This document shows, in pieces, positions 5,725-64,000 of a stretch of 64,000 nt of DNA; within the stretch, counting starts at the first letter, position 1, and the number at the start of each line of letters is the position of its first letter. A program made the position numbers and the translations under genes. The DNA comes from Parietichytrium sp. I65-24A. Taxonomy: Eukaryota > Sar > Bigyra > Thraustochytrida > Thraustochytriidae. Where the stretch lies: NCBI GenBank assembly GCA_012862575.1, contig BLSF01000031.1:454626-518625 (forward strand), in the 5' to 3' direction. The notes under the pieces are model-generated. The model did not search any database. It was not told the origin of the DNA and was given only the letters and a program-made list of their open reading frames with translations.

Positions 5725-6961
5725 TAATAGTTCATGGGAGAGGTTTCGTGTTGTGTTGACATTGTTCATTGTTCATTTTCTGAGGGTAGGATAGGTTATG
5801 GTTTAATCGTAAGAAAGCTGAGAGAGATTGTGTTCTTGTGGATGGAAGAACTTAGGACAGATGTCTATTTATAGTCTCGTGCCTGGCTACTTATTTACAG
5901 ACCAAAATACTCTTCAAGTTTTGAAATAGATTTTCTCTTGTGTTTCGATGTCGTCTGCATTGCTGTGGGTTACAAGTGGTTACAAGTCCAACGCGAAATC
6001 CTAGCGGACCAGAGAACAAAGTAAGGCTCTTCGAGACCTACCGAAACGCGGAGCGGAACGCGCTCTTGAGCTGACCATCAATCAAGCTTGGTGAAATGTG
6101 CACACTCAAGTTTCGCTCTTTTTGCGGAACAGAGACCATCGACAGTGACAGTGTCTGAAAAAAGTTCTGAAAGGTTCTGAAATTCTGAATGTAACTTAAT
6201 TGTCATAACTCGTCAAGGGAATGAAATCGAGCTAGTAAAAAGCCGCTGTCTAAAGATGTCGAAAAATGACAATCCAATCCAATCCATTCCATTCCATTTT
6301 CCATAGTTTGTCTCGACAGACTGTGAAAGTGAATCCTCTCAAGAATCGTCTTCACTTGCGTGATGCGCCTTGAAGGCGAACCAAAATCACCAAAGGCACT
6401 TGGAGGCACAAATCTCAGCGGCGACATAAAACAGGCGAGGTCTCGACTGCTTCGCTGCTCGACTAAGCTTATGCTCAACTGATGTACATTTCTTTTTTGT
6501 ACGTACGTAAACTTACTATTTAGTCCTGGGCTGCGCGGCTTGATGTTCTTCGAGTCAGCGTGCGGAACAGAAATCCGCGAGGTGGAAATGGAAACGGGAA
6601 CGCTTTCATCATTGTTTATCGCGAGACGACTTTTGGTTCGCCAGGCGGAGATGGATTGTTCTCCAAAGACTTCGTCTTTCCCTCATCGCAAGAAGGACTC
6701 AAAACGGCTTGTTCCATAGAACAGCTTCAGCTCGAGAACGCGCTCGGTTGTATCGTGGACAGGAAACGAGAAAAAACTTTCGACTGCAATACTCACAACT
6801 CACTCTCACAAATCTCACAATCAACTAATTATGCTCGTTAACAACGCATTCACCCTTATCCAATAGTCTGAATAGGTCTTATGGCGCGTCATGGTCGCCC
6901 AGCTCCGGGTTTCCGAATCAATTTCTTTCCAAGCTATGAGAAAGCGAATATTCAAGCATAG
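5725..6961. repeat. 1.2-kb duplicated unit, copy 1
   Basis: This 1,237-base stretch recurs directly after the N at 6962. Both copies begin with TAATAGTTCATGGGAGAGG and end with CGAATATTCAAGCATAG. They differ by scattered substitutions and small indels, for example near 6160 and 6280. Short frames inside (minus 6203-6478, plus 6560-6841) exist in both copies. The plus frame carries several amino-acid changes in about 80 codons, so there is no sign of coding constraint. Confidence 0.85.
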
Positions 6962-6962
6962 N

Positions 6963-8179
6963 TAATAGTTCATGGGAGAGGTTTCGTGTTGTGTTGACAT
7001 TGTTCATTGTTCATTTTCTGAGGGTAGGATAGGTTATGGTTTAATCGTAAGAAAGCTGAGAGAGATTGTGTTCTTGTGGATGGAAGAACTTAGGACAGAT
7101 GTCTATTTATAGTCTCGTGCCTGGCTACTTATTTACAGACCAAAATACTCTTCAAGTTTTGAAATAGATTTTCTCTTGTGTTTCGATGTCGTCTGCATTG
7201 CTGTGGGTTACAAGTGGTTACAAGTCCAACGCGAAATCCTAGCGGACCAGAGAACAAAGTAAGGCTCTTCGAGACCTACCGAAACGCGGAGCGGAACGCG
7301 CTCTTGAGCTGACCATCAATCAAGCTTGGTGAAATGTGCACACTCAAGTTTCGCTCTTTTTGCGGAACAGAGACCATCGACAGTGACAGTGTCTGAAAAT
7401 TTCTGAAAGGTTCTGAAATTCTGAATGTAACTTGATTGTCATTACTCGTCAAGGGAATGAAATCGAGCTAGTAAAAAGCCGCTCTTTAAAGATGTCGAAA
7501 AATGACAATCCAATCCATTCCATTCCATTTTCCATAGTTTGTCTCGACAGACTGTGAAAGTGAATCCTCTCAAGAATCGTCTTCACTTGCGTGATGCGCC
7601 TTGAAGGCGAACCAAAATCACCAAAGGCACTTGGAGGCACAAATCTCAGCGGCGACATAAAACAGGCGAGGTCTCGACTGCTTCGCTGCTCGACTAAGCT
7701 TATGCTCAACTGATGTACATTTCTTTTTTGTACGTAAACTTACTATTTAGTCCTGGGCTGCGCGGCTTGATGTTCTTCGAGTCAGCGTGCGGAACAGAAA
7801 TCCGCGAGGTGGAAATGGAAACGGGAACGCTTTCATCATTGTTTATCGCGAGACGACTTTTGGTTCGCCAGGCGGAGATGGATTGTTCTCCAAAGACTTT
7901 GTCTTTCCCTCATCGCAAGACGGACTCAAAACGGCTTGTTCCATAGAACAGCTTCAGCTCGAGAACGTGCTCGGTTGTATCGTGGACAGGAAACGAGAAA
8001 CAACTTTCGACTGCAATACTCACAACTCACTCTCACAATCAACTAATTATGCTCGTTAACAACGCATTCACCCTTATCCAATAGTCTGAATAGGTCTTAT
8101 GGCGCGTCATGGTCGCCCAGCTCCGGGTTTCCGAATCAATTTCTCTCCAAGCTCTGAGAAAGCGAATATTCAAGCATAG
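6963..8179. repeat. 1.2-kb duplicated unit, copy 2
   Basis: Second, 1,217-base copy of 5725-6961. It starts at the first base after the N and runs on into unique sequence after 8179. The exact edge-to-edge match suggests two overlapping contigs, or two alleles, placed end to end. Confidence 0.85.
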
Positions 8180-50946: not shown

Positions 50947-51980
50947 TCGTCTGGCCCTCGCCCCGCTGCTGCCTTCCTTCAGAGCACCCGTACCTAGTAC
51001 CCAACCGTGAAAGCCAGACGCTCGTCTCGCAAATATTGGATCCTCAACACCTCAACAACTCAACACCTTGCACATAACTCACAACTCGCACTTTGCTCAC
51101 TTTGCTCCAGTTCGTTTTGGGTTTCTCTTGATTGATCAATCAATCAAAATCAACAATGAACGCGAACAATCAAGTTGACGCGTTGACTAACTGTCACGTA
51201 CCGGTACCGGTAACTGTATGTAAACCCCGAGAAAATGGTCCGGCATGGCGCAACTCGAGAGCCTAGGCAAGTAAGCCTGACTCTGGCAGGCGCAACTCGC
51301 GAAGATGAACTGCAAAGGCAACTCTCAAGCACGAAGAAGATCGCCGAAGGCGGGCGCACATTGGCTACATTGGCTTGTGAATTAGGAAAAAATATCAAAC
51401 CTGTAGATCGTCAGGGAAGAATGTTTCAAGTTTTTCCCTTGCTAGGTAAGTTTCTCTTTCTTGGCGGCTGAGGATTTCGGCATCTCCAAGAACGACGGGT
51501 CTAACAAAAGGCCAGGTAGACCTCAACGAACAAGGAATCTCAGGGAACAAGGAACTTTGACGAGAACAAATCGAACAAACGCTGAGCAACACTAATTAGG
51601 TTTTGACAATGTGTCTATACACCCCACTAAGCAGGGGTTACAGCTCACTTCTACAGGTGTCTACGGGACGAGCAGGAATTTTGGCTTGTCGGACAGATTC
51701 GGACAGGCTGAATACAAAACGCCAAATCATGCCAAATCTCCATGAAAGTGAGAGAGGTGGGCACCGAGCCCTTCCACGGCACTCCTCCTCACCGCCACTG
51801 TTTTCATGTCACAAGTGCCGCCTTCGAATCTCCGTGCAAATTTGTTAAAAAAAAAGGAAAGAGAAGAGAAATACTTTTTTTTCCATAGGATGTGAAACAT
51901 TGCGTGAGTCGCGTCGTGTGTGTAAGGGCTAGACAGAAAGTTCGGATTCCAGACTCCAGTTCGAGTCGCCGATTTCAGAA
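50947..51980. other. non-coding flank of LRR copy A
   Basis: This holds one copy of a 67-base dispersed repeat (51217-51283), a short sequence inverted relative to 60391-60418 (51528-51554), and from 51705 the start of the long duplication shared with 61351 onward (LRR gene 3' flank). Confidence 0.5.
51217..51283 (+). repeat. 67-base direct repeat, copy 1
   Basis: Begins TATGTAAACCCCGAGAAAAT and ends AAGTAAGCCTGACTC. It matches 60585-60651 in the same orientation with two visible differences, 9,368 bases apart. Confidence 0.85.
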
Positions 51981-54366
51981 CTAAAGAACGCACTCCTTGC
52001 GGGGGGCAATGCGCGCCTCGTTTCTTTTCAACAACTCCGTGATTCGCTCGCATGGAGGAGCGGGATATCCTGAGCAGTCGCTTTCGTCGTCTCCGTAAGA
52101 CCTCGTAAGACATTCGTCATCAAAGCTTTCCAGATTTGTTAGATCATCTCGCACCTCAGACACCGGCGATGAAACTTACTGTATTTCTGTGAGCGTGTAA
52201 TTCTCTTCAAGTGCGGCACAAAGCGTCTCCGCATTCTCGTCTGTGATGTTATTGTGAGACAGACTGTTAAAACAACGCAAAGAAACACTTTCGTTAATCT
52301 CGATTGTCTAGCCAGGACAGCCGCGCAAAGGCAGCAAGTTCAATTCCCAACTTCTTGCTGATTCGGAAATTCAATCGACGTACTCGAGAGTCGTCAAGGA
52401 CTTATTTTGTTTGAGCCCGTGCGAGATCGCAGCCATATGATTCTCAGATTGTAAACCATTATTTGCGGACAGACTGAAGAATGACAAAAAGTTACAGTTA
52501 ATCACTTCAACAGCAAACACTGACGAATGGACGCATCAACCTACTTCAGAAGGGTCAGTGTGGAGTTCATTTCCAGCGCGCGACCCAATTCTTCTGCAGC
52601 TTCGGTGTTTATCTTGCAGAGATTGAGGCTATATCAATATAAAAAAAGCCCACGTTAGTGAACGAGCCACACAAGTCACACAGTGCGCGATTTGCGGATC
52701 GAATCGAAGATGAAAAGCCTACCTCAGAAAGGTCAACGCTGTGTTCTTCTGCAGCGCTCGACCAATCGCCGCCACCCCTTCTCCACTCGTTGAATGGTTA
52801 AGGCCACCCGAGAGACTGATAAGATAGGTGTTAATTCAGCGCGTTGACACTCTCTATTCTTGCTCCAAGCAATTGCACAGCGACTCACGTGACCTTCGTC
52901 AATCCAGTGTTGTTTCCAAGCATCGAACCCATCGCGATCAAACCTTTATCTCCGTAGCCATTTTGATGCATGCTGTTTAGGTCGTAAAATCTCAATAATA
53001 TCAGCAAGACGTAGGCAAAGGTCCTTTTCAACGCCGCCCAATTCGCAAAAGCCAACACTGTTTCTCATGGACTTACCGGAGGCACTGTAGTGTGTTGTTT
53101 TTCTCCAGCGCATCAGCAATCGCGCAAGCTCCAAGGTCAGTGAAGGAATTCCATGCAACACTAGACGACTCAATATTACATGTCAGCATTTGGGTCTGGG
53201 CCGTTTAAGAATAATTGACTGAATATACTCATTCTCCTCCCGAATGATACACTTCTTCCAGATTAACGTACTCCAATTCTGTCAATGTACTATTCTCCTC
53301 CAAGGCACTCGCGAGTTCTACCGCCGAGGCATCACTCCTACCACAATAACATAAGCTTGAGGAGTGAAGTCGAATATTTTTTAATAGTCAGAGTGGTGCC
53401 ATCAGAGTCAATTTTGCACCGAAGCCGATGACAAGAGCAACTTACTTAAGATACGTCAGAGTAGTGTTCATCCTCAACACTGTACAGATCGCCCTGTGCC
53501 CACCCGGTCCGATTGCATTCATGGACAGACTAGCTCATTTACGTTTTCCTGTTAAATTTTCTTGAAGTTCATGCTCACCACCTGTGCTAAAAGGCTGGAT
53601 GCTTCCTTCAGCATTAACCAGGCAAATTAGAACGTACTCGAGAGTCACCAAACCTTGAACAACACAGGACCTGACGGTTCCATCATCTGAAAGAATACTG
53701 TAGAAACGAGTGAGACTGTTGGGTACAACGGGTGGTCGCAGTCAGTTTAAATAGGCCCCACTCTTTCTGTTGTCTTGAAATTCTTTACCAATTCAGAGCA
53801 TTGATCGATTTCTTAGAAAACAAAGAATCTGAGTCACTTGCAAGTCACGTACCCATGGAAAATAGCAAATTGCAATTCCACAAATGAACTCAGGGTCTCA
53901 ATACTATCAGGCCTTCCCATGAACCAACACTTCGAGTGAGTTTCACTCAAACTATACAAGTCAAGGAGTATCGTTAGTGTCAGCAAGAGTCTAAACATTT
54001 GGCTCAAAATCAAAACTGTAAACACTCTCGTCTCTCTTGTCAGGATCTTCAATGTCCTACATACTTGAGGGAAGTCAACGAGCAGTTTTCCGATAGCCCT
54101 AACCCGATTGCATTTAATCCATTGCCTATCGTGAAATTGTGAGCCAAACTTGAGCACATGAGAAAAGGGATACAAAAGTCAGATAGAATGAGCTCGTGAC
54201 GTGTTGCAGCCTCTGTTCTTAAGGCAAGACGATTGCCAACGTACTTAAGGGTACTCAGTACCGCATTTTGCCCGAGGCATTCACCGATCGAGATTGCTCC
54301 TTCTTCACCAATCTTATTTTGGGACAGACTGATGATAATTACGCCCTTCGTTAATTGACTGTGCAA
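51705..54366. repeat. segmental duplication, copy A
   Basis: Near-identical direct copy of 61351-64000, collinear with a few indels (for example about 19 bases near 53245). Similarity begins abruptly at AGGCTGAATACAAAACGCC. The copy continues past 54366, but its partner is cut by the window end. Confidence 0.92.
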
Positions 54367-55395
54367 AGCCGGACGTTTCTGTTGGATACCGTACAATAAC
54401 GACGTACTTTAGGTTTGTCAACGCAGCGTTCTTCTTGAGCCCATTGCTGAGACTGATTGCCCCTTCGTTTCCAATTTCGTTCTCGCTCAGACTAGTCACA
54501 TGAAGACAACAAGGGCGTGAGTATCGGCTTTCGACAATTGTATCTCCTAAAAAGGCTCAGCCTTGGACGACTCACTTCAAAGTTTTCAATGCGATATTCT
54601 GAAGCAGTCCATGGCCAATCCGTTTAGCACCTTCATCCCCAATGGAAGCAGAACTCAGGCTGGTAAAATGTTCAAGAGTGATGAAGAGTAAGCTAACGAC
54701 AATGCAAAGTGCAGTCCCTTCTCCAACGAAACAGTTCATGCACAGTGTTCAATATAACGCACTCAAGCTCAGTCAATGATGAGTTTCCTCCCAAAGCGTG
54801 GCCAAGTGGGGCTGGTATGTCCATTCTTCCACGTGGCTTCAGACTGTTCATGGTCAGGTGGGACAATTACATGTTAGCAGCTTTGGCAAGTCTCGGCCAT
54901 CGAATATGTGCATACTCACATGAGGGTTGCCAGCGTGTCATTGCTTTTGAGCACCTCTCCAATCACAGATCCGACGGACTGGCAGGAAAGAAGCCTAACA
55001 TCATCAAGGAATTTAGTAATTTCGGGTGAATCAGAACATGCGAAAGATTCCCAACTCAGCGCTCCGTGGCACTTCTATGCTGATGCTTTCATACAGTGAA
55101 TACTGTACTGCTCGTCGACCAAGAGGCTGCGTTGAAGTGCGAGGACTTACTCCAGATACACCAGCGTCTTGCTTCTTGCAACAGTCAAAGCTAGCTCTCG
55201 ATTCTCATTTGCTCTATTCCTCCTGCCAAGTGCCACCCTGCGCCAATATACAAGCAATCCGTGAGCGCCATTGGCCAAGGCCTGACCAGGTCACGAGAGA
55301 AGCACTTACCGTACCGCCCTCTCCCCACGCTCAATCGCCAAGCGTGCGTCAGAGAAGCTATGCAGCCACAAGACTCTGCGATCTGGGCCAGACAT
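51981..55395 (-). CDS. multi-exon leucine-rich-repeat protein (RNI-type), copy A
   Basis: Gene model from splice signals, 19 exons, high to low: 55395-55310, 55222-55151, 54994-54920, 54843-54763, 54659-54576, 54491-54408, 54328-54245, 54148-54065, 53951-53853, 53715-53638, 53529-53446, 53355-53272, 53160-53077, 52972-52889, 52815-52723, 52628-52545, 52473-52384, 52263-52180, 52101-51981. Every intron is phase 2, with donors such as GTACGT/GTAAGT/GTGAGT. The product is about 540 residues. Most middle exons are 84 bases and encode one 28-residue ribonuclease-inhibitor-type LRR (for example LSENEIGNEGAISLSNGL, then LTNL). The first exon starts MSGPDRRVLWLH; the last ends ITELLKRNEARIAPRKE. No nucleotide-binding, kinase or membrane domain is seen, so it is a probable intracellular protein-binding LRR scaffold or receptor-like protein. 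Individual weak exons (10, 12) could use alternative acceptors. Confidence 0.78.
53853..53951 (-). other. hypervariable LRR exon, copy A
   Basis: A 99-base exon, phase 2 at both ends, encoding LSETHSKCWFMGRPDSIETL and onward. It aligns without gaps to 63487-63585 yet differs at 22 bases, while the exons on either side differ at 0-8. Confidence 0.8.
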
Positions 55396-55928: not shown

Positions 55929-57240
55929 CTATTCATTGTTTATTTCTTCTGTGTGCAGCTGCCATCTGGCAGCTAAGGTGGCTCTATGCGCGGCTCGCAA
56001 AAGCTGTGTGTTGCTGAGATCGTGCTGTGCATTTGAGAGCGGCATGCCAGTAAGTTTACATCGGAAATACTCGAGTGTGAATATAGCGCAGTCATATCCA
56101 TTCGGTTGTTTGGGAAAGGTCTCCCCAGGGACAGTGAAGTTCGCGTTGATAGTGGGGAGCCAATGCCGGAGACGTGCCTCAATTGCAATGGCAGACCTAA
56201 CAGTGGTTTGGACGTTCTCAGATGGGTCTATAAGCTCGACCCGTGCATCTGGAAAAGATGTGGCGTCAAATTCAAAGAGAAGGAGGTGGTTCTGAAGATA
56301 TACCGGCGCAAGGACGCGTCTTCTTTGCTGCAGTATCTCGATGAAGTCAAGTGGGACGAGAGCATTGGCGAGGAAAAGGTGAACGGGATTTGGAGGCACC
56401 GTATAGCCCTGTCTTTGTTCGTCGGGAATTCGCTCCAGAAGAACTGTGACTAGAGTGCTCATGGCAAGATCATCAACCCATTCGCCAGCTTGGAGGCTCT
56501 CTATCGCGTTTGATCGGTCCGTTGCCGTAGAGGTGGCGCCAGCGAGCGCGGTGTCGTTGCCCCTCTCCGCTGCACGCGCTCGAGCTGTGATGCTGACGAG
56601 GGGTCGCGCAGGAGGCAAAGCGTCGTTAGTTCTATTCCTTTTTCGCGTTGGTGAAGAGTGGAGTCTTGCGGCCAGACTTTGTTCTTGCACGAGACCTGCG
56701 ACATGGTCCTGGCCGGCAGAGTTGCATGACGTAATCCACAGTTCACGCCTGGATTGACGTGTTTGCACTGCAAGCGTACGCAGCCGCGCCATGTCATGGA
56801 CCTGATCATACGAGACCGAGACGTCATCATTTAGCCACTTAAGGTAAACCTCTTTGAATGCAGGCTCGTTCCCGTTACAGAGCGGGGCAAGGATAGCGAG
56901 TTGTTGTATTGACTGTGCCCGACTCAACATTACATAGGCACTCCCCTTTTTTTTTCGTTCTGGCCAGGTACAATGCGCAGTTCTAGTACGAGCTTGACGC
57001 CTCTATCCCAGCGCATGGTCGCGCCCTGTACGCCCATGTCGGTAGCAGCTTTTTTTCAGCGCGGAGAAGCAGGAACCGCGCCCATGTCTCCAGAGTTAAT
57101 TGCTGCACATCGCGGCCATCATACCAGTAAGGAAACACGGAGCCGAATGCCCGAGGGAAGTAGTTGTCCTGGAACTCGTTCACAGGCTTCATATCCCCGT
57201 TCGGCGTTAAGATGATCGGATCCTAAAGGTATCTGTCGAG
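55929..57240 (-). pseudogene. decayed PIF1-like helicase C-terminus fused to Ulp1-type (C48) protease
   Basis: A 333-residue open frame (ATG 56928-56930) carries a Ulp1/SENP-like cysteine protease: WVDD at 151-154, His215 (QNHLLLF), Asp235 (LIDP), oxyanion Gln275 and Cys281 (KQPNGYDCAIF). Its first residues continue upstream as KKGSAYVMLSRAQSIQQL, a PIF1 helicase motif VI. Beyond a run of nine A (minus strand; T9 at 56947-56955) another frame gives TDMGVQGATMRWDRGVKL and KLVLELRIVPG (motif V). Beyond a run of seven A (T7 at 57050-57056) a third frame gives FGSVFPYWYDG and WARFLLLRAEKK. The fusion therefore appears broken by two homopolymer frameshifts and truncated upstream by a stop near 57241. 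The frameshifts could be sequencing errors. It is probably of mobile-element origin. Confidence 0.65.
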
Positions 57241-57247
57241 CACTCAG

Positions 57248-60200
57248 ATGGGGGCAGTGCAAGTAGCGCAGGTCGTTGTAGGAATCCCGGATCACTACTA
57301 CTCGCACAAAACTGTATACCTTGACTGGATGAAAATTGTGCAAGAACTTGCGACTCTAAATTTGCTCGATCTCACTCCGTTTGGCATTCCACTCTATGCT
57401 CAAACTATGCGGGTCACCGACGACGGCATCGTTACGCACTATCACGACAATACGACGAAAATAGACGTCTCTTCATGCCGGTTGAGCCCTTATGAGCTCG
57501 CTATGTGGACACAACAGTGCTCCAAAAAACAGGCCACTATTCCTTTCTCCACTGCCCATCCGCTCAATGACAAGAGAGGTCTTAAATTCGTAACGGAGAT
57601 GAACGTTCCAATCATGTGGAAAATTCCCAGGTCAGAGGACAAACTTGTTTTTGACTTATTCATCGCTACAATCGCGTCCCCAATGGCCGCTCAGCTTTTC
57701 AGCACCAATGAGCCGATTACCATGCAACAAATTCAAAGCTACAAGGTGGGTGCGATGCAGAATAAATGGGTACAAAAGCTAGTCCACAACATTCTTCTTT
57801 CCGAGCAAGCCGACAAACTCGCGAAGGCCCACTCGAAACAGATTGACAAAGAGAGAGACGGTATCGAAGACGATGCTGATGCCAACTCGGAAGAGAATTG
57901 CATTGATGAGGACATCGACTTTTACGACAAATTCCAACCGGAACGAGACTTGGTGGAACAGGAAGCCATTCTTGATATCATAGACGAAGAAGTCGAATAT
58001 TTGACAGAACATGACGCCACCAGCACTCACGCTCCGAGCATAAAGTCAACATGGGCAAAAGAAGGTGCACAGGCTTTCCAGAACTACGTACAGGCTCGGT
58101 TTCCATACTTTGGAGTTCCTCACGATACTCAGCAACTGCGCAACTTTCGTGACACGCATATGAATGACGACACAGAGGATTGTATGGTTGGAGCTGCGGA
58201 TGAGACTACGCGCCACGTCCTCGAAGCTTCCCGCAAAGAAGAGAAAGAGCTCGGCAGAATCTATCAGCGAATGCACAAAACTGATCCGCAGGAGCTCGCG
58301 CCAGTTTTAAGTGTACAAGAGCGCAGCAACGAGATCCTGAAATGGTTGAAACCCAGTCAAGAAGCTGACTTTGCGCGAACTCTGGACCCCGCCCAATGGC
58401 AAAAAATGGAATCACTGGTCGCTGCGGCGCTGGACAACTCTGTTCCGGCGACGGAATATGCCGAGCAAAGTCCCTCCTTGGACCATCCATCACGGCCAAT
58501 CCAGCCGTGCATGACCGCGGAGAGCGTAGCACAGATCTTTACACTGACCAAGGAGCAATTTTTGCCCTTTGTGGTCTTTGCAGAGTACGCTTTGAGTCTC
58601 AAACGATTCCTGCAAAACCCCAACTGCTTTCAGTGCCCCGCGCCTTTGCGCATGTGCATCGACGCCGCCCCTGGCGCAGGAAAGTCATGGGTGTTGAAAG
58701 CCATCATATTCTTCGCCTGGAATCAAGGCCTCATCCATCTGTGCAGAGCAACAGCTTACTCTGCTAAAGCGAGCGCCAACATCCACTCCGCTGTGCTCCC
58801 TGCGTCCACCACCCACTCTCTCTTCAGTATAAACAGGTGTGACACGAACACACCTCTAACGGCAAGAGCGCCTAAGGAGTCGTTAGGCTCCGTCGCTATT
58901 TGCTTCCTGGATGAGATATCCCTCATCTCTAGTGATTTCTTGGCAGTCATTAGCAACCAGTTCACCAAATTGAGCGCCAACACGCAAGCAGAAGGCTTCG
59001 GGGGTAGGTGCATCATTGCTTTCGGGGACACTTCGCAGCTCGTTTTGGGAGCACCACTCTGGAAAAGCCACCCAAACGAGTGTACAACGGACATTATCTC
59101 AGCAGGATTCGACCAGAGGAAACAACAAAATAATCTTCAGCTTCTCGGGCGGCAACTATGGCTACAGATGGACGTCTGCCAGCTGTACGAGGTGAATCGC
59201 TTCCTCCCAACGCCAGGCGGCAGGCAGCTGGCTGAAATTGTCCTCGACCTTCGGCGCGGCGTCTTGTCGGAGCAGACGTTGGATTTGCTGAATAGTCGCA
59301 CCTTGTCAGACGGCGTCGAGCTGTTCAGCAAGCCAGATCTGCCTCCAATATTTCTAAGCTCGAGAAATTTGGTTCTCTCTGAAGTGGCTGTTCATATGCA
59401 AATTGCAGAGGGGTTGGCGCAAGGCAAGCAAGTTTTCATTTGGCCTTCCTTGGACATCGACACACACAAGAACGCAAGGTTGTCAGCAACTCAGCAACTC
59501 ATGGCCAATGAGTTATGTTTTCGCAAGGCGGGAGAGTGCTTCAAGTATTACGTGTTCTTTCCCGGGGCGCAGTATGTCTTTTCACAAAATGTCTTGAAGC
59601 GGGTGGGGTGGATAAATCAAGGAGAAGCGCGCGCCATAGATATTCAGTTCCACCCTGAAGAGCCAACGCTGGCGCAAGGTCAGCAAGTAGTCTTTTTGAG
59701 GAGACAACCGCTTTCAATGACGATGGAGATTTCCTGCCCGCCAAAGCCATTTCATATCGATGGCTTGCCTCCAAATTGCGTGAAACTCTTTCGGAAGCGG
59801 ACCAAAACTTTCAAGCTTGAAGACGGCACGACATGTATACGATATGGTTTCAAGGATGTCTTCCCTGCTAATACGAAAACTGACTATATGGTTCAATGCG
59901 CAACAATACGCAGCCCTCAGAAAGTCATTATTGATCTTTCCATCCCACTCGACGGCAAGGTCAACGCAGGTTCTTGGCTCGTCATGCTTTCCAGAGCGGA
60001 GACGCTGGATCAGATTTACCTCGCAAGGCCCCTTTACACGACGTCACAAGAACGTGCAATATTTCTTCCGAAGGCAATAGCAAAGGCTGCTCTTCCGGAT
60101 GCCAAGCAGAATGAACTCGCTCGGATGCAAAGACGCAGTCAGGAGTTCAAACAAAAATACGCCTGGGCGGTCGACAGAGCGGCATGCCTTCCAGACTTTA

Positions 60201-60344
60201 GAACGGACACAATAGCAGCCCCTCAGACGCAATTTTCGTTCGTGTCTCAAGTACCACAGANCAGTACCACAGAAACGCAAAGCGCCCAACAAGAGCAAGG
60301 TCTCCAACAAAACCAAGAGACCACGAGCAAAAACGACACAATGA
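57248..60344 (+). CDS. PIF1-like helicase from a mobile element, C-terminus affected by an N
   Basis: A large single-exon ATP-dependent DNA helicase of the PIF1/RecD2 superfamily 1 type. Motif I is DAAPGAGKS (472-480), motif II is FLDEIS with D555-E556, motif III is IIAFGDTSQL, and motif VI is SWLVMLSRAETLDQIYL. The N-terminal about 450 residues are not recognised; no HUH replication-initiator motif of Helitrons was found. Read literally through the N at 60261 the frame runs to 60457 and ends in an odd tail made of 17-base repeats. If the 11-base sequence duplicated around the N is collapsed, the frame instead ends at TGA 60342-60344 with a Lys/Arg-rich tail (KRKAPNKSK), which looks nuclear-localising. 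It is divergent from the helicase/Ulp1 pseudogene and shares motif V-VI similarity with it. A cellular PIF1 is unlikely, given the context and the divergence. Confidence 0.75.
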
Positions 60345-60584
60345 TTCGGGGGACTAGTTCCTTATTCTCTGGGATACGGTGCTCTCTGGGATTCCTTGTT
60401 CTCTGGAATTCCTTGTTCTCTGAGCTTCCTTGTTCGCTCGAGTCTGTCATTACTTAGTAAATGCAACACAAAGAGCTAGCTACAAGTCCTAATCCTTCCT
60501 ATCATCTCGTCTTCCAAATTCCACTATCTCTCTACTAGCTAGGCACGCACTTCTGGCCCGGGGGGTTCTACCCCCCGTGAGTAT

Positions 60585-60651
60585 TATGTAAACCCCGAGA
60601 AAATGGTCCGGCATGGCGCAACTCAAGAGCCTATGCAAGTAAGCCTGACTC
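60585..60651 (+). repeat. 67-base direct repeat, copy 2
   Basis: Same orientation and length as 51217-51283, with two visible differences. It directly precedes the retroelement-like fragment. Confidence 0.85.
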
Positions 60652-60900: not shown

Positions 60901-61618
60901 CGGCATCATCAAAGGAGCTAAAAAGATTCAAGTTGCAGTGTGGTGCAACGGCTCCATGTGGGCCACTGTTGGTGGCTTAACCCGCGAGATGGATGTTTTC
61001 ACTGATATCCACAATTTGCCTACGGGCTTGCACATGTCGGCTGCGCCCCCTGTGCTTGTTTGAAGGCTTCGTAGCTCAGTCTCTCTTTAGATAAATGTTC
61101 AATCCAAAATTTTACTCTGGAGACGTGCAAACAGGGTGGAAGGAGGAGCTCAATGGAGAAGCTTCCGCTCCTGTCTTTTACCCTCTACATAAGTGCAGTG
61201 AAAAGTTTGTGGGCAGCGCGCAGGTATCGGCTGGAAAGCAAACATTGGTGGATCAAACCCTGTCCACACCTATGAAATAGAGGGACCTATTGACGGTTGC
61301 AAGTCTTCCTGTTGGCGTCTGATCCACCCTCAGACGCGAGCACCGAGGAGAGGCTGAATACAAAACGCCAAATCTCCATGAAAGTGAGAGGTGGGCACCG
61401 AGCCCTTCCACGGCACTCCTCCTCACCGCCACTGTTTTCATGTCACAAGTGCCGCCTTCGAATCTCCGAGCAAATTTTTGTTATAAAAAAAAGAAAAGAG
61501 AAGAGAAATACTTTTTTTTTCCATAGGATGTGAAACATTGCGTGTGTCGCATCGTGTGTGTGAGGGCTAGACAGAAAGTTCGGATTCCAGACTCCAGTTC
61601 GGGTCGCCGATTTCAGAA

Positions 61619-64000
61619 CTAAAGAACGCACTCCTTGCGGGGGGCAATGCGCGCCTCGTTTCTTTTCAACAACTCCGAGATTCGCTCGCATGGAGGAGCG
61701 GGATATCCTGAGCAGTCGCTTTCGTCGTCTCCGTAAGACCTCGTAAGACATTCGTCATCAAAGCTTTCCAGATTTGTTAGATCATCTCGCACCTCAGACA
61801 CCGGCGATGAAACTTACTGTATTTCTGTGAGCGTGTAATTCTCTTCAAGTGCGGCACAAAGCGTCTCCGCATTCTCGTCTGTGATGTTATTGTGAGACAG
61901 ACTGTTAAAACAACGCAAAGAAACATTTTCGTTAATCTCGATTGTCTAGCCAGGACAGCCGCGCAAAGGCAGAAAGTTCAATTTCCAACCTCTTGCTGAT
62001 TCGGAAATTCAATCGACGTACTCGAGAGTCGTCAAGGACTTATTTTGTTTGAGCCCGTGCGAGATCGCAGCCATATGATTCTCAGATTGTAAACCATTAT
62101 TTGCGGACAGACTGAAGAATGACAAAAAGTTACAGTTAATCACTTCAACAGCAAACACTGACGAATGGACGCATCAACCTACTTCAGAAGGGTCAGTGTG
62201 GAGTTCATTTCCAGCGCGCGACCCAATTCTTCTGCAGCTTCGGTATTTATTTTGCAGAGCCTGAGGCTATCAATATAAAAAAAGCCCACGTTAGTGAACG
62301 AGCCACACAAGTCACACAGTGCGCGATTTGCGGATCGAATCGAAGATGAAAAGCCTACCTCAGAAAGGTCAACGCTGTGTTCTTCTGCAGCGCTCGACCA
62401 ATCGCCGCCACCCCTTCTCCACTCGTTGAATGGTTAAGGCCACCCGAGAGACTGATAAGATAGGTGTTAATTCAGCGCGTTGACACTCTCTATTCTTGCT
62501 CCAAGCAATTGCACAGGGACTCACGTGACCTTCGTCAATCCAGTGTTGTTTCCAAGCATCGAACCCATCGCGACCAAACCTTTATCTCCGTAGCCATTTT
62601 GATGCATGCTATTTGGGTCGTAAAATCTCAATAATATCAGCAAGACGTAGGCAAAGGTACTTTTCAACGCCGCCCAATTCGCAAAAGCCAACGCTGTTTT
62701 TCATGGACTTACCAGAGGCGCTGTAGTGTGTTGTTTTTCTCCAGCGCATCAGCAATCGCGCAAGCTCCAAGGTCAGTGAAGGTATTACATGCAACACTAA
62801 ACGACTCAATATTACATGTCAGCATTTGGGTCTTGGCCGTTCAAGAATAATTGACTGAATACACTCATTCTCCTCCAGTATTAACGTACTTCAATTCTGT
62901 CAATGTGCTATTCTTCTCCAAGGCACTCGCGAGTTTTACCGCCGAGGCATCACACATAACACAGTAATTTAAGCTTGAGGAGTGAAGTCGAATGTTTTTT
63001 TACAGGATCAATAGTCAGAGTGGTTGTATCAAAAATAAATTTTGCACCGAAGCCGATGACAAGAGCAACTTACTTAAGACACCTCAGTGTAGTGTTCATC
63101 GTCAACACTGTACAGATCGCCATGTGCCCACCCGGTCCGATTGCATTCATGGACAGACTAGCTCATTTACGTTTTCCTGTTAAATTTTCTTGAAGTTCAT
63201 GCTCACCACCTGTGCTAAAAGGCTGGATGCTTCCTTCAGCATTAACCAGACAAATTAGAACGTACTCGAGAGTCACCAAACCTTGAACAACACAGGACCT
63301 GACGGTTCCACCATTTGAAAGAATACTTTTGAAAGCAGTGAAACTGTTGGGTACAACGGGTGATCGCAGTCAGTTTAACTGTAAATGAGCCACATTCTTT
63401 CAGTTGAACTAAATTTCTTTACCGATTCAGAGCACTGATCGATTTCTTGCAAACCAAAGAATCTGAGTCACTTGTAAGTCACGTACCCATCGAGAATAGC
63501 CAATTGCAAATACATAAATAAATCCTGGGTCTCACTATTATCAGGAATTCCCGCGAGCGTACACTCCCAGAGAGTTTCACTCAAACTATACAAGTCAAGG
63601 AGTATCGTTAGTGTCAGCAAGAGTCTAAAGATTTGGCTCAAAATCAAAACTGTAAACACTCTCGTCTCCCTTGTCAGGATCTTCGATCTCCTACATACTT
63701 GAGGGAAGTCAACGAGCAGTTTTCCGATAGCCCCAGACCGATTGCAATCAATCGATTGCCTATCGTGAAATTGTGAGCCAAACTTGAGCACGTGAGAAAA
63801 GGGATACAAAAGTCAGATAGAATGAGCTCGTGACGTGTTGCAGCCTCTGTTCTTAAGGCAAGACGAATGCCAACGTACTTCAGGGTGCTCAGTACCGCAT
63901 TTTCCCAGAGGCATTCACCGATCGAGACTGCTCCTTCTCTACCAATCTTATTTTTGGACAGACTGATGATAATTACGCCCTTCGTTAATTGACTGTGCAA
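61619..64000 (-). CDS. multi-exon leucine-rich-repeat protein, copy B (5' part outside window)
   Basis: Paralogue of 51981-55395 with the same exon plan. Exons that could be placed include 61739-61619 (last), 61901-61818, 62973-62890, 63343-63266, 63585-63487 and 63962-63879, all phase 2. All compared exons remain open, including 62973-62890, where the acceptor shared with copy A (AAG) restores a full 28-residue repeat. It therefore looks intact rather than a pseudogene. Amino-acid changes relative to copy A cluster in the exons near 62700-64000, strongest at 63487-63585. The N-terminal exons lie beyond the window. Confidence 0.72.
63487..63585 (-). other. hypervariable LRR exon, copy B
   Basis: A 99-base exon encoding LSETLWECTLAGIPDNSETQ and onward. 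It is open and of the same length and phase as its counterpart at 53853-53951 but differs at 17 of 33 residues. Confidence 0.8.

Follow-up and report, generated by a model that had tools for sequence, protein, structure and literature searches.

Exon E9 of an LRR gene in Parietichytrium sp. I65-24A differs between two copies of the gene at 22 of its 99 bases, and all 22 differences replace amino acids. We lean toward the view that ordinary tandem LRR duplicates, gene conversion, and selection on E9 and the adjacent exon E10 together best explain this pattern. Both copies lie within a 64,000-nucleotide window of contig 31, which is the whole stretch of DNA analyzed here. All comparisons rest on one assembly, and the splicing of copy A is a manual prediction.

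Two copies of a ribonuclease inhibitor-type LRR gene

The features to which the comparison refers are as follows.

51981..55395, minus strand: LRR gene copy A (manual splice model with 19 exons, 18 introns, and 557 amino acids)
61367..64000, minus strand: LRR gene copy B, truncated by the contig end, with E7 to the 3' end present
54245..54328, minus strand: exon E7 of copy A, an ordinary 84-base, one-LRR exon
53853..53951, minus strand: exon E9 of copy A (99 bases, no LRR score, 22 replacement and 0 silent changes relative to copy B)
63487..63585, minus strand: exon E9 of copy B, the counterpart of E9 in copy A
53638..53715, minus strand: exon E10 of copy A (78 bases, no LRR score, 7 replacement and 0 silent changes relative to 63266–63343 of copy B)

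With predicted splicing, the copy A model is a single open frame of 557 codons plus a stop. Ten of its 19 exons are 84 bases in length, and 18 of 18 introns are in phase 2; joint skipping of E9 and E10 would likewise preserve the frame. A shorter E12 considered for copy A was dropped, as its acceptor is absent in copy B, and the version open in both copies was used instead.

Pfam identified LRR families only in copy A (LRR_6, 118.5 bits, cut-off 23.4), and a search of the PDB with the copy A protein matched 71 sequences, including ribonuclease inhibitors, NLRP chains, LRR34, and axonemal LRR proteins. Consecutive repeats of 28–29 residues with an LxxLxLxxN...L...L pattern are present, and the predicted product of copy A is a ribonuclease inhibitor-type LRR protein. 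It shares the 28-residue LRR and the LxxLxLxxN and IGxxGA-like motifs with ribonuclease inhibitor and NLRs (PDB 1dfj, 3tsr, and NLRP chains). Unlike NLRs, copy A has no NACHT or other effector domain detected by Pfam, and its E9–E10 segment is poorly matched to PDB chains.

Differences between the copies in E9

Ungapped alignment confirmed what had been counted by eye in E9, namely 22 differences in 17 codons and no synonymous change. The exon is read on the minus strand, in the sole frame open in both copies, and the altered codons (17 of 32 whole codons) are all replacements (NG86 sd 0, nd 22, S 18.3, N 77.7). Twelve of these codons carry a single change and five a double change, with the changes distributed 9:10:3 over the three codon positions. 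The resulting E9 peptides are 48% identical. The changes are scattered over the entire exon, unlike the pattern in LRR exons of the family. As had been claimed, E9 remains open with its length and phase kept, and both copies share the acceptor (...tgtatag) and the donor (gtacgtga); phase 2 is kept because 99 is divisible by three.

The surroundings of E9 are less diverged. Across the 11 other shared exons (E7, E8, and E10–E18), 0–10 of 78–93 bases differ; the low level of difference first described for neighboring exons stands, but its range had been put at 0–8 of about 84. Pooled, these exons have 32 nonsynonymous and 11 synonymous differences (nd and sd), corresponding to a pN of 0.047 and a pS of 0.051. 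The intron at 53952–54064 is little diverged (4 of 113 bases), and the intron on the other side of E9 (53716–53852) is moderately so (17 of 137, 12.4%), both as previously noted.

E9 and E10 fail to score as LRRs

E9 had been labeled an LRR exon, and this label was not borne out. An HMM was trained on 328 LRR exons from other family loci and applied to E2–E4, E8–E10, E12, E15, and E17. The score for E9 in copy A was −3.5 bits, and there was no listed match to E9 of copy B; E10 scored −4.6 and −4.5 bits in the two copies. Reversed decoy peptides scored from −3.2 to +3.3 bits, and E8, E12, E15, and E17 of copy A from 15 to 42 bits. Among the other copy A exons, E4 scored 12.3 and E3 7.0 bits, while E2 fails as well (−2.6 bits). 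We rejected E9 as an ordinary LRR exon of the family, its score being at the level of the reversed decoys. The HMM scores instead indicate that E9 is either a non-LRR segment or a fully eroded repeat, occupying the place of two repeats.

The two exons account for residues 223 to ~281 of the predicted protein (~59 residues). In the best 60 of the 71 PDB matches, the best-matching stretch stops at residues 222–226 in three of the top chains and starts at 273–279 in several others; in eight chains of these 60 it crosses the E9–E10 segment (e.g., 100–407). The segment probably interrupts the solenoid, and it probably forms a variable contact surface. E9 is presumably expressed.

Absence of silent changes

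The lack of silent changes was compared with neutral simulations, in which the same number of changes and transitions was placed randomly and only runs with an open frame were kept. E9 had no silent change in 15 of 40,000 neutral runs, against a mean expectation of 5.2; a smaller, earlier simulation of 4,000 runs gave 0.0005. Because E9 was chosen for looking extreme, a factor of ~12, the number of shared exons, is due, and the value for E9 alone then becomes ~0.005. The absence of silent changes among the seven in E10 occurred in 8.4% of neutral runs, and the pattern of the two exons taken together (29 replacement, 0 silent) in 1 of 40,000.

Other comparisons were less decisive. A weaker test, on third codon positions, gave 3 of 22 changes for E9 (binomial P 0.035) and 4 of 29 with E10 included (P 0.016). 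With sites back-calculated, replacement differences in E9 (22 of 78 sites) are 2.3-fold those in the adjoining intron within the diverged patch described below (p = 0.0055), and for E9 and E10 together p = 0.052. E9 has only 18 silent sites, and its pS of 0 does not differ significantly from the 12.4% of the intron (p = 0.22). Strong diversifying selection had been proposed for E9. The complete lack of silent changes and the excess over the intron support this, but the result with E10 added and that from silent sites by themselves do not. We consider positive selection on E9 to be real but moderate on these sequence comparisons, since the test loses significance with E10 and the silent sites are too few.

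A neutral reading is that E9 and E10 are decayed, often skipped exons, whose lack of silent changes reflects chance and the choice of example. The failure of both to score as LRRs and the low identity of the E9 peptides fit such decay, as do the divergence of the adjoining intron, the near equality of pN and pS in the rest of the gene, and the marginal third-position result for E9. We find it improbable nonetheless, given how rarely neutral runs reproduced the pattern, and given that the frame, the length, and both splice sites are preserved in both copies.

Mosaic divergence of the two copies

Copies A and B differ by 124 substitutions over 2,540 aligned bases, and these substitutions are unevenly placed. 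Two regions stand out.

53678..53937, no strand assigned: diverged patch with 46 substitutions in 260 aligned bases (17.7%), spanning the greater part of E9, the intron, and the 5' portion of E10
52041..52880, no strand assigned: apparently homogenized stretch with identical runs of 247, 254, and 255 bases, introns included

The identical runs are located at 52624–52880 (255 bases), 52353–52606 (254 bases), and 52041–52287 (247 bases). When the variable sites between the copies were permuted, the mean maximum run was 107 bases, and the longest observed run was equalled in 0 of 5,000 permutations. Likewise, the densest 99-base window holds 23 changes (permuted mean maximum 11.0; equalled in 0 of 5,000), and none of the 5,000 permutations matched either the densest 260 bases or the sparsest 800. 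The description of the copies as otherwise near-identical holds for the runs of ~250 bases but not for the whole, which is a mosaic that includes the diverged patch. The mosaic suggests that conversion between the copies has homogenized their 3' part.

The favored explanation would run as follows. Copies A and B would be tandem duplicates of one ribonuclease inhibitor-type LRR gene belonging to a large family with 84-base, phase-2 exons, and interlocus gene conversion would hold parts of them near-identical. The ~260-base patch of E9 and E10 would have escaped conversion or come from a diverged copy, so that an older divergence (12% in its intron) would be retained. Replacement changes in E9 and E10 would have been favored on top of this, the two exons probably forming a variable contact surface.

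Alternatively, the E9–E10 cassette may have been replaced by ectopic conversion from a diverged paralogue missing from the assembly, with the excess of replacements reflecting the history of the donor. Replacement by a cassette from another paralogue had been suggested, and no donor was found in the assembly. Searches of the 42.5-Mb assembly with DNA and with peptide, which score best candidates only and are limited in sensitivity accordingly, matched E9 in copies A and B and revealed no third E9. The identical 99-base sequence was looked for in other paralogues of the assembly and not found. A gene-region search returned the two copies and one 48-base match on contig 53, and local tblastn with E9 in 20 family loci gave weak matches only (best E 0.29). 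A known paralogue as the source of E9 was rejected, as no third copy was found in the assembly by DNA or protein. Within the sensitivity of the tools, this counts against an imported cassette, which by itself would also leave the 29 replacement and 0 silent changes unexplained. Such an import would, however, produce a bounded patch whose intron is also highly diverged, as is the case here, and other family genes look mosaic (e.g., pair P2). Copy B is truncated by the end of contig 31, and therefore a longer array may run past the contig end and further copies may be unassembled. On balance, we regard this alternative as rather unlikely.

The least probable of the alternatives is that the comparison reflects an assembly artefact, copy B being a misplaced or chimeric haplotype at the contig end; we give it very little weight. 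Contig 31 does stop within the duplicate, 415 bases past E9 of copy B, and there is a single N between copies A and B at 60261. The flanks outside the duplicate, on the other hand, share no match over 200 bases, only a 67-base repeat, and the divergence is mosaic rather than uniform. The lack of silent changes would, moreover, hold even for an allele.

The exon-array LRR family

The window gene has many relatives in the genome. A protein search yielded at least 172 matches (E up to 1) and a consensus search at least 219 (E up to 0.01), with both lists including LRR genes with long open frames, which are not of the exon-array kind. Twenty loci were picked for exon clusters among the matches listed. 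In these 20 and the window, 346 exons fit both the pattern AG-N-27 codons-NN-GT and the LRR profile, whereas 0 of 1,136 reversed candidates passed; the search pattern (AG-N-81-NN-GT) fixes length and phase 2, so that exons of other lengths are uncounted and phase is no independent test. By sequence, the family is built exon by exon, with one LRR per 84-base exon. Exon-plus-intron units are mostly ~150–200 bases apart, and in the chosen loci, among the matches listed, are ~69–98% alike in DNA over 150–3,600 bases. Similar tandem exon/intron units were not seen within the window gene.

Variability within the repeat is highest at codons 3, 2, 5, 26, and 8 (3.9, 3.7, 3.7, 3.1, and 2.8 bits, respectively). 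By the standard LRR register, these codons presumably flank the β-strand and point outward on the concave side; they are referred to below as exposed. Codon 14 of the family LRR encodes an Ile that hardly changes, and has a pS of 0.35, as compared with 0.11 at non-exposed codons.

Four loci (L017, L018, L020, and L025) have a gap of 412–432 bases in the exon array. In L017, L018, and L020 the gap holds a common 60-base open stretch (LDSTSMSAKGTLADRLWLA-like, with a weak donor), and in L025 and one gene of L018 it holds an 81-base open stretch.

Selection or exchange at exposed codons

Exposed codons were examined in four collinear duplicate pairs, the window pair included (L017, L018, L020, L031, and the window). 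Pair P2, a mosaic of non-corresponding units, was excluded for that reason. Relative to non-coding sites (281 of 5669, 0.050; E9, E10, E15, and E17 excluded from this baseline), exposed codons had more replacement differences (34 of 331, pN 0.103; OR 2.2, p = 1.2e-4) and also more silent ones (12 of 89, pS 0.135; OR 3.0, p = 0.0017). Replacement at other codons was below the non-coding level (p = 0.0015). In the four pooled pairs, dN was not found to exceed dS at exposed codons (p = 0.44), with NG86 counting some silent steps within multiply changed codons. Selection alone is unproven for the family, since silent sites are raised alongside replacement ones.

Individual pairs varied. In per-pair tests with back-calculated sites, and with E9, E10, E15, and E17 included in the baseline of the window pair, pair P1 had no excess of replacement (0.079 vs. 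0.074) and the other three pairs had an excess of ~2.7 to 3 times. In the eight canonical exons of the window pair, exposed codons have 12 replacement and 2 silent changes, as compared with 13 and 9 elsewhere.

A second comparison used 154 nearest-unit pairs, chosen to have no more than 16 exon differences and no more than 15% difference in the downstream intron. The pN and pS values are 0.319 and 0.274 at exposed codons and 0.049 and 0.110 elsewhere, with introns at 0.076, and in codons 2, 3, 5, and 26 the first, second, and third positions are about equally diverged. Since these unit pairs were preselected by similarity, the main test is that on the collinear pairs. There, 11 exposed codons have changed at more than one base, and a uniform rate would give 4.7. 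Variable LRR codons change as whole codons, with silent sites raised too.

Silent sites between the variable codons bear on how this arises. Where codons 2, 3, and 5 are all changed (66 pairs), the silent sites of codons 1, 4, 6, and 7 differ by 0.08–0.27; the same sites differ by 0.32–0.53 in random pairs and by 0–0.04 in 23 unchanged pairs. Regional hypermutation was rejected, the silent sites between variable codons being less diverged than in random pairs. The whole-codon pattern would follow from selection combined with ectopic exchange of short stretches, and also from a codon-targeted process.

A dedicated diversification process (hypermutation, or retroelement-borne or somatic exchange of cassettes) might act on the codons of these exons. 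The rise at exposed codons of replacement and silent differences at like rates, the surplus of multiply changed codons, and the near equality of the three codon positions are what it would produce. We nevertheless judge such a process highly improbable. The silent sites between variable codons rise only part-way, as selection with ectopic exchange would also predict, and the silent events are few, some of them steps that NG86 counts within codons changed more than once. In E9, silent changes are absent, and most of the altered codons carry a single change. A targeted diversification process had been raised in the sequence-only reading; nothing found for E9 points to it directly, while the codon-wide rise at variable LRR codons of the family is compatible with it. 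The fuller form of this idea, in which LRR cassettes would undergo programmed or codon-targeted diversification and E9–E10 would be a hypervariable, antibody loop-like, non-LRR module renewed in each gene copy, seems to us similarly remote.

Comparison with known LRR exon arrays

Tetrahymena has thousands of LRR genes made from 90-bp, phase-2 exons, and the authors who described them were unaware of comparable arrays in any other organism (PMC6564038). Their report describes features also found here: tandem one-repeat exons of fixed length, all or nearly all in phase 2, and similar exon/intron units. The exons here differ in being 84 bases in length and in encoding a 28-residue, ribonuclease inhibitor-type repeat, as compared with 90 bp in Tetrahymena (PMC6564038).

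Brown algal LRR-ROCO genes, as described in PMC11378527, which cites Zambounis et al. 2012 on them, have 72-bp, phase-2 LRR exons that encode 23-residue repeats with positively selected concave sites. They have in common with the genes here one LRR per phase-2 exon, shuffled exons, and variable sites on the concave face. Two differences are evident: the brown algal ROCO proteins have a ROC-COR domain, none being found in copy A by Pfam (PMC11378527), and positive selection was detected in the algae by site models, whereas dN was not found to exceed dS in the family here (p = 0.44, as given above). The part consulted of a paper on zebrafish NLRs (PMC11192531) yielded no exon lengths.

A search covering part of the literature found no description of such an 84-base exon-array family. 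The family adds an 84-base, ribonuclease inhibitor-type case to the exon-array LRR genes of Tetrahymena and brown algae, suggesting an architecture that recurs wherever receptor-like diversity is of use. Within it, E9–E10 would be a fast-changing non-LRR insert in an LRR exon array. The codon-wide rise, silent sites included, poses a concrete puzzle as to whether selection with exchange or a targeted process is responsible.

Possible mobile elements and other features of the window

Two open reading frames between the copies have domains that were scored by Pfam.

55929..56930, minus strand: Ulp1 (Peptidase_C48) ORF (21.7 bits, cut-off 20.7)
57248..60457, plus strand: Pif1-like helicase ORF with one ambiguous base (PIF1 23.9 bits, under the 25.9 cut-off; AAA_19 30.5 bits, over the 25.1 cut-off)

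The Ulp1-domain ORF is possibly borne by a mobile element. The Pif1-like helicase protein has 39 matches in the genome (E up to 1e-20), counting itself; of the 38 further pieces, 27 have in-frame stops. Merged by hand, the 39 matches make up 30 loci. Six of these 30 are within 10 kb of LRR places of the exon-array kind, as compared with 2.3% of the genome (P 4.9e-5, or 4.4e-4 without the window), with the LRR places hand-listed from among the matches listed and with both kinds of locus perhaps simply sharing contig ends.

Pif1-like pieces near LRR arrays recall the retrotransposon beside the Tetrahymena LRR exons. Varying exon number and nearby transposable elements are common to both cases, and the nearby element differs, being Pif1-like/Ulp1 here and the LINE-like REP in Tetrahymena (PMC6564038).

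The 67-base repeat mentioned above (97% identical) occurs at 51217–51283 and 60585–60651, on the left side of each LRR copy. Part of a 96-base query was also found at 21 other places in the genome, and the repeat may therefore mark where a mobile element ends. The window also contains a direct repeat of ~1.2 kb, arranged head to tail at 5725–6961 and 6963–8179 and 97.5% identical; a single N at 6962 separates its two copies, which may mark an assembly join.
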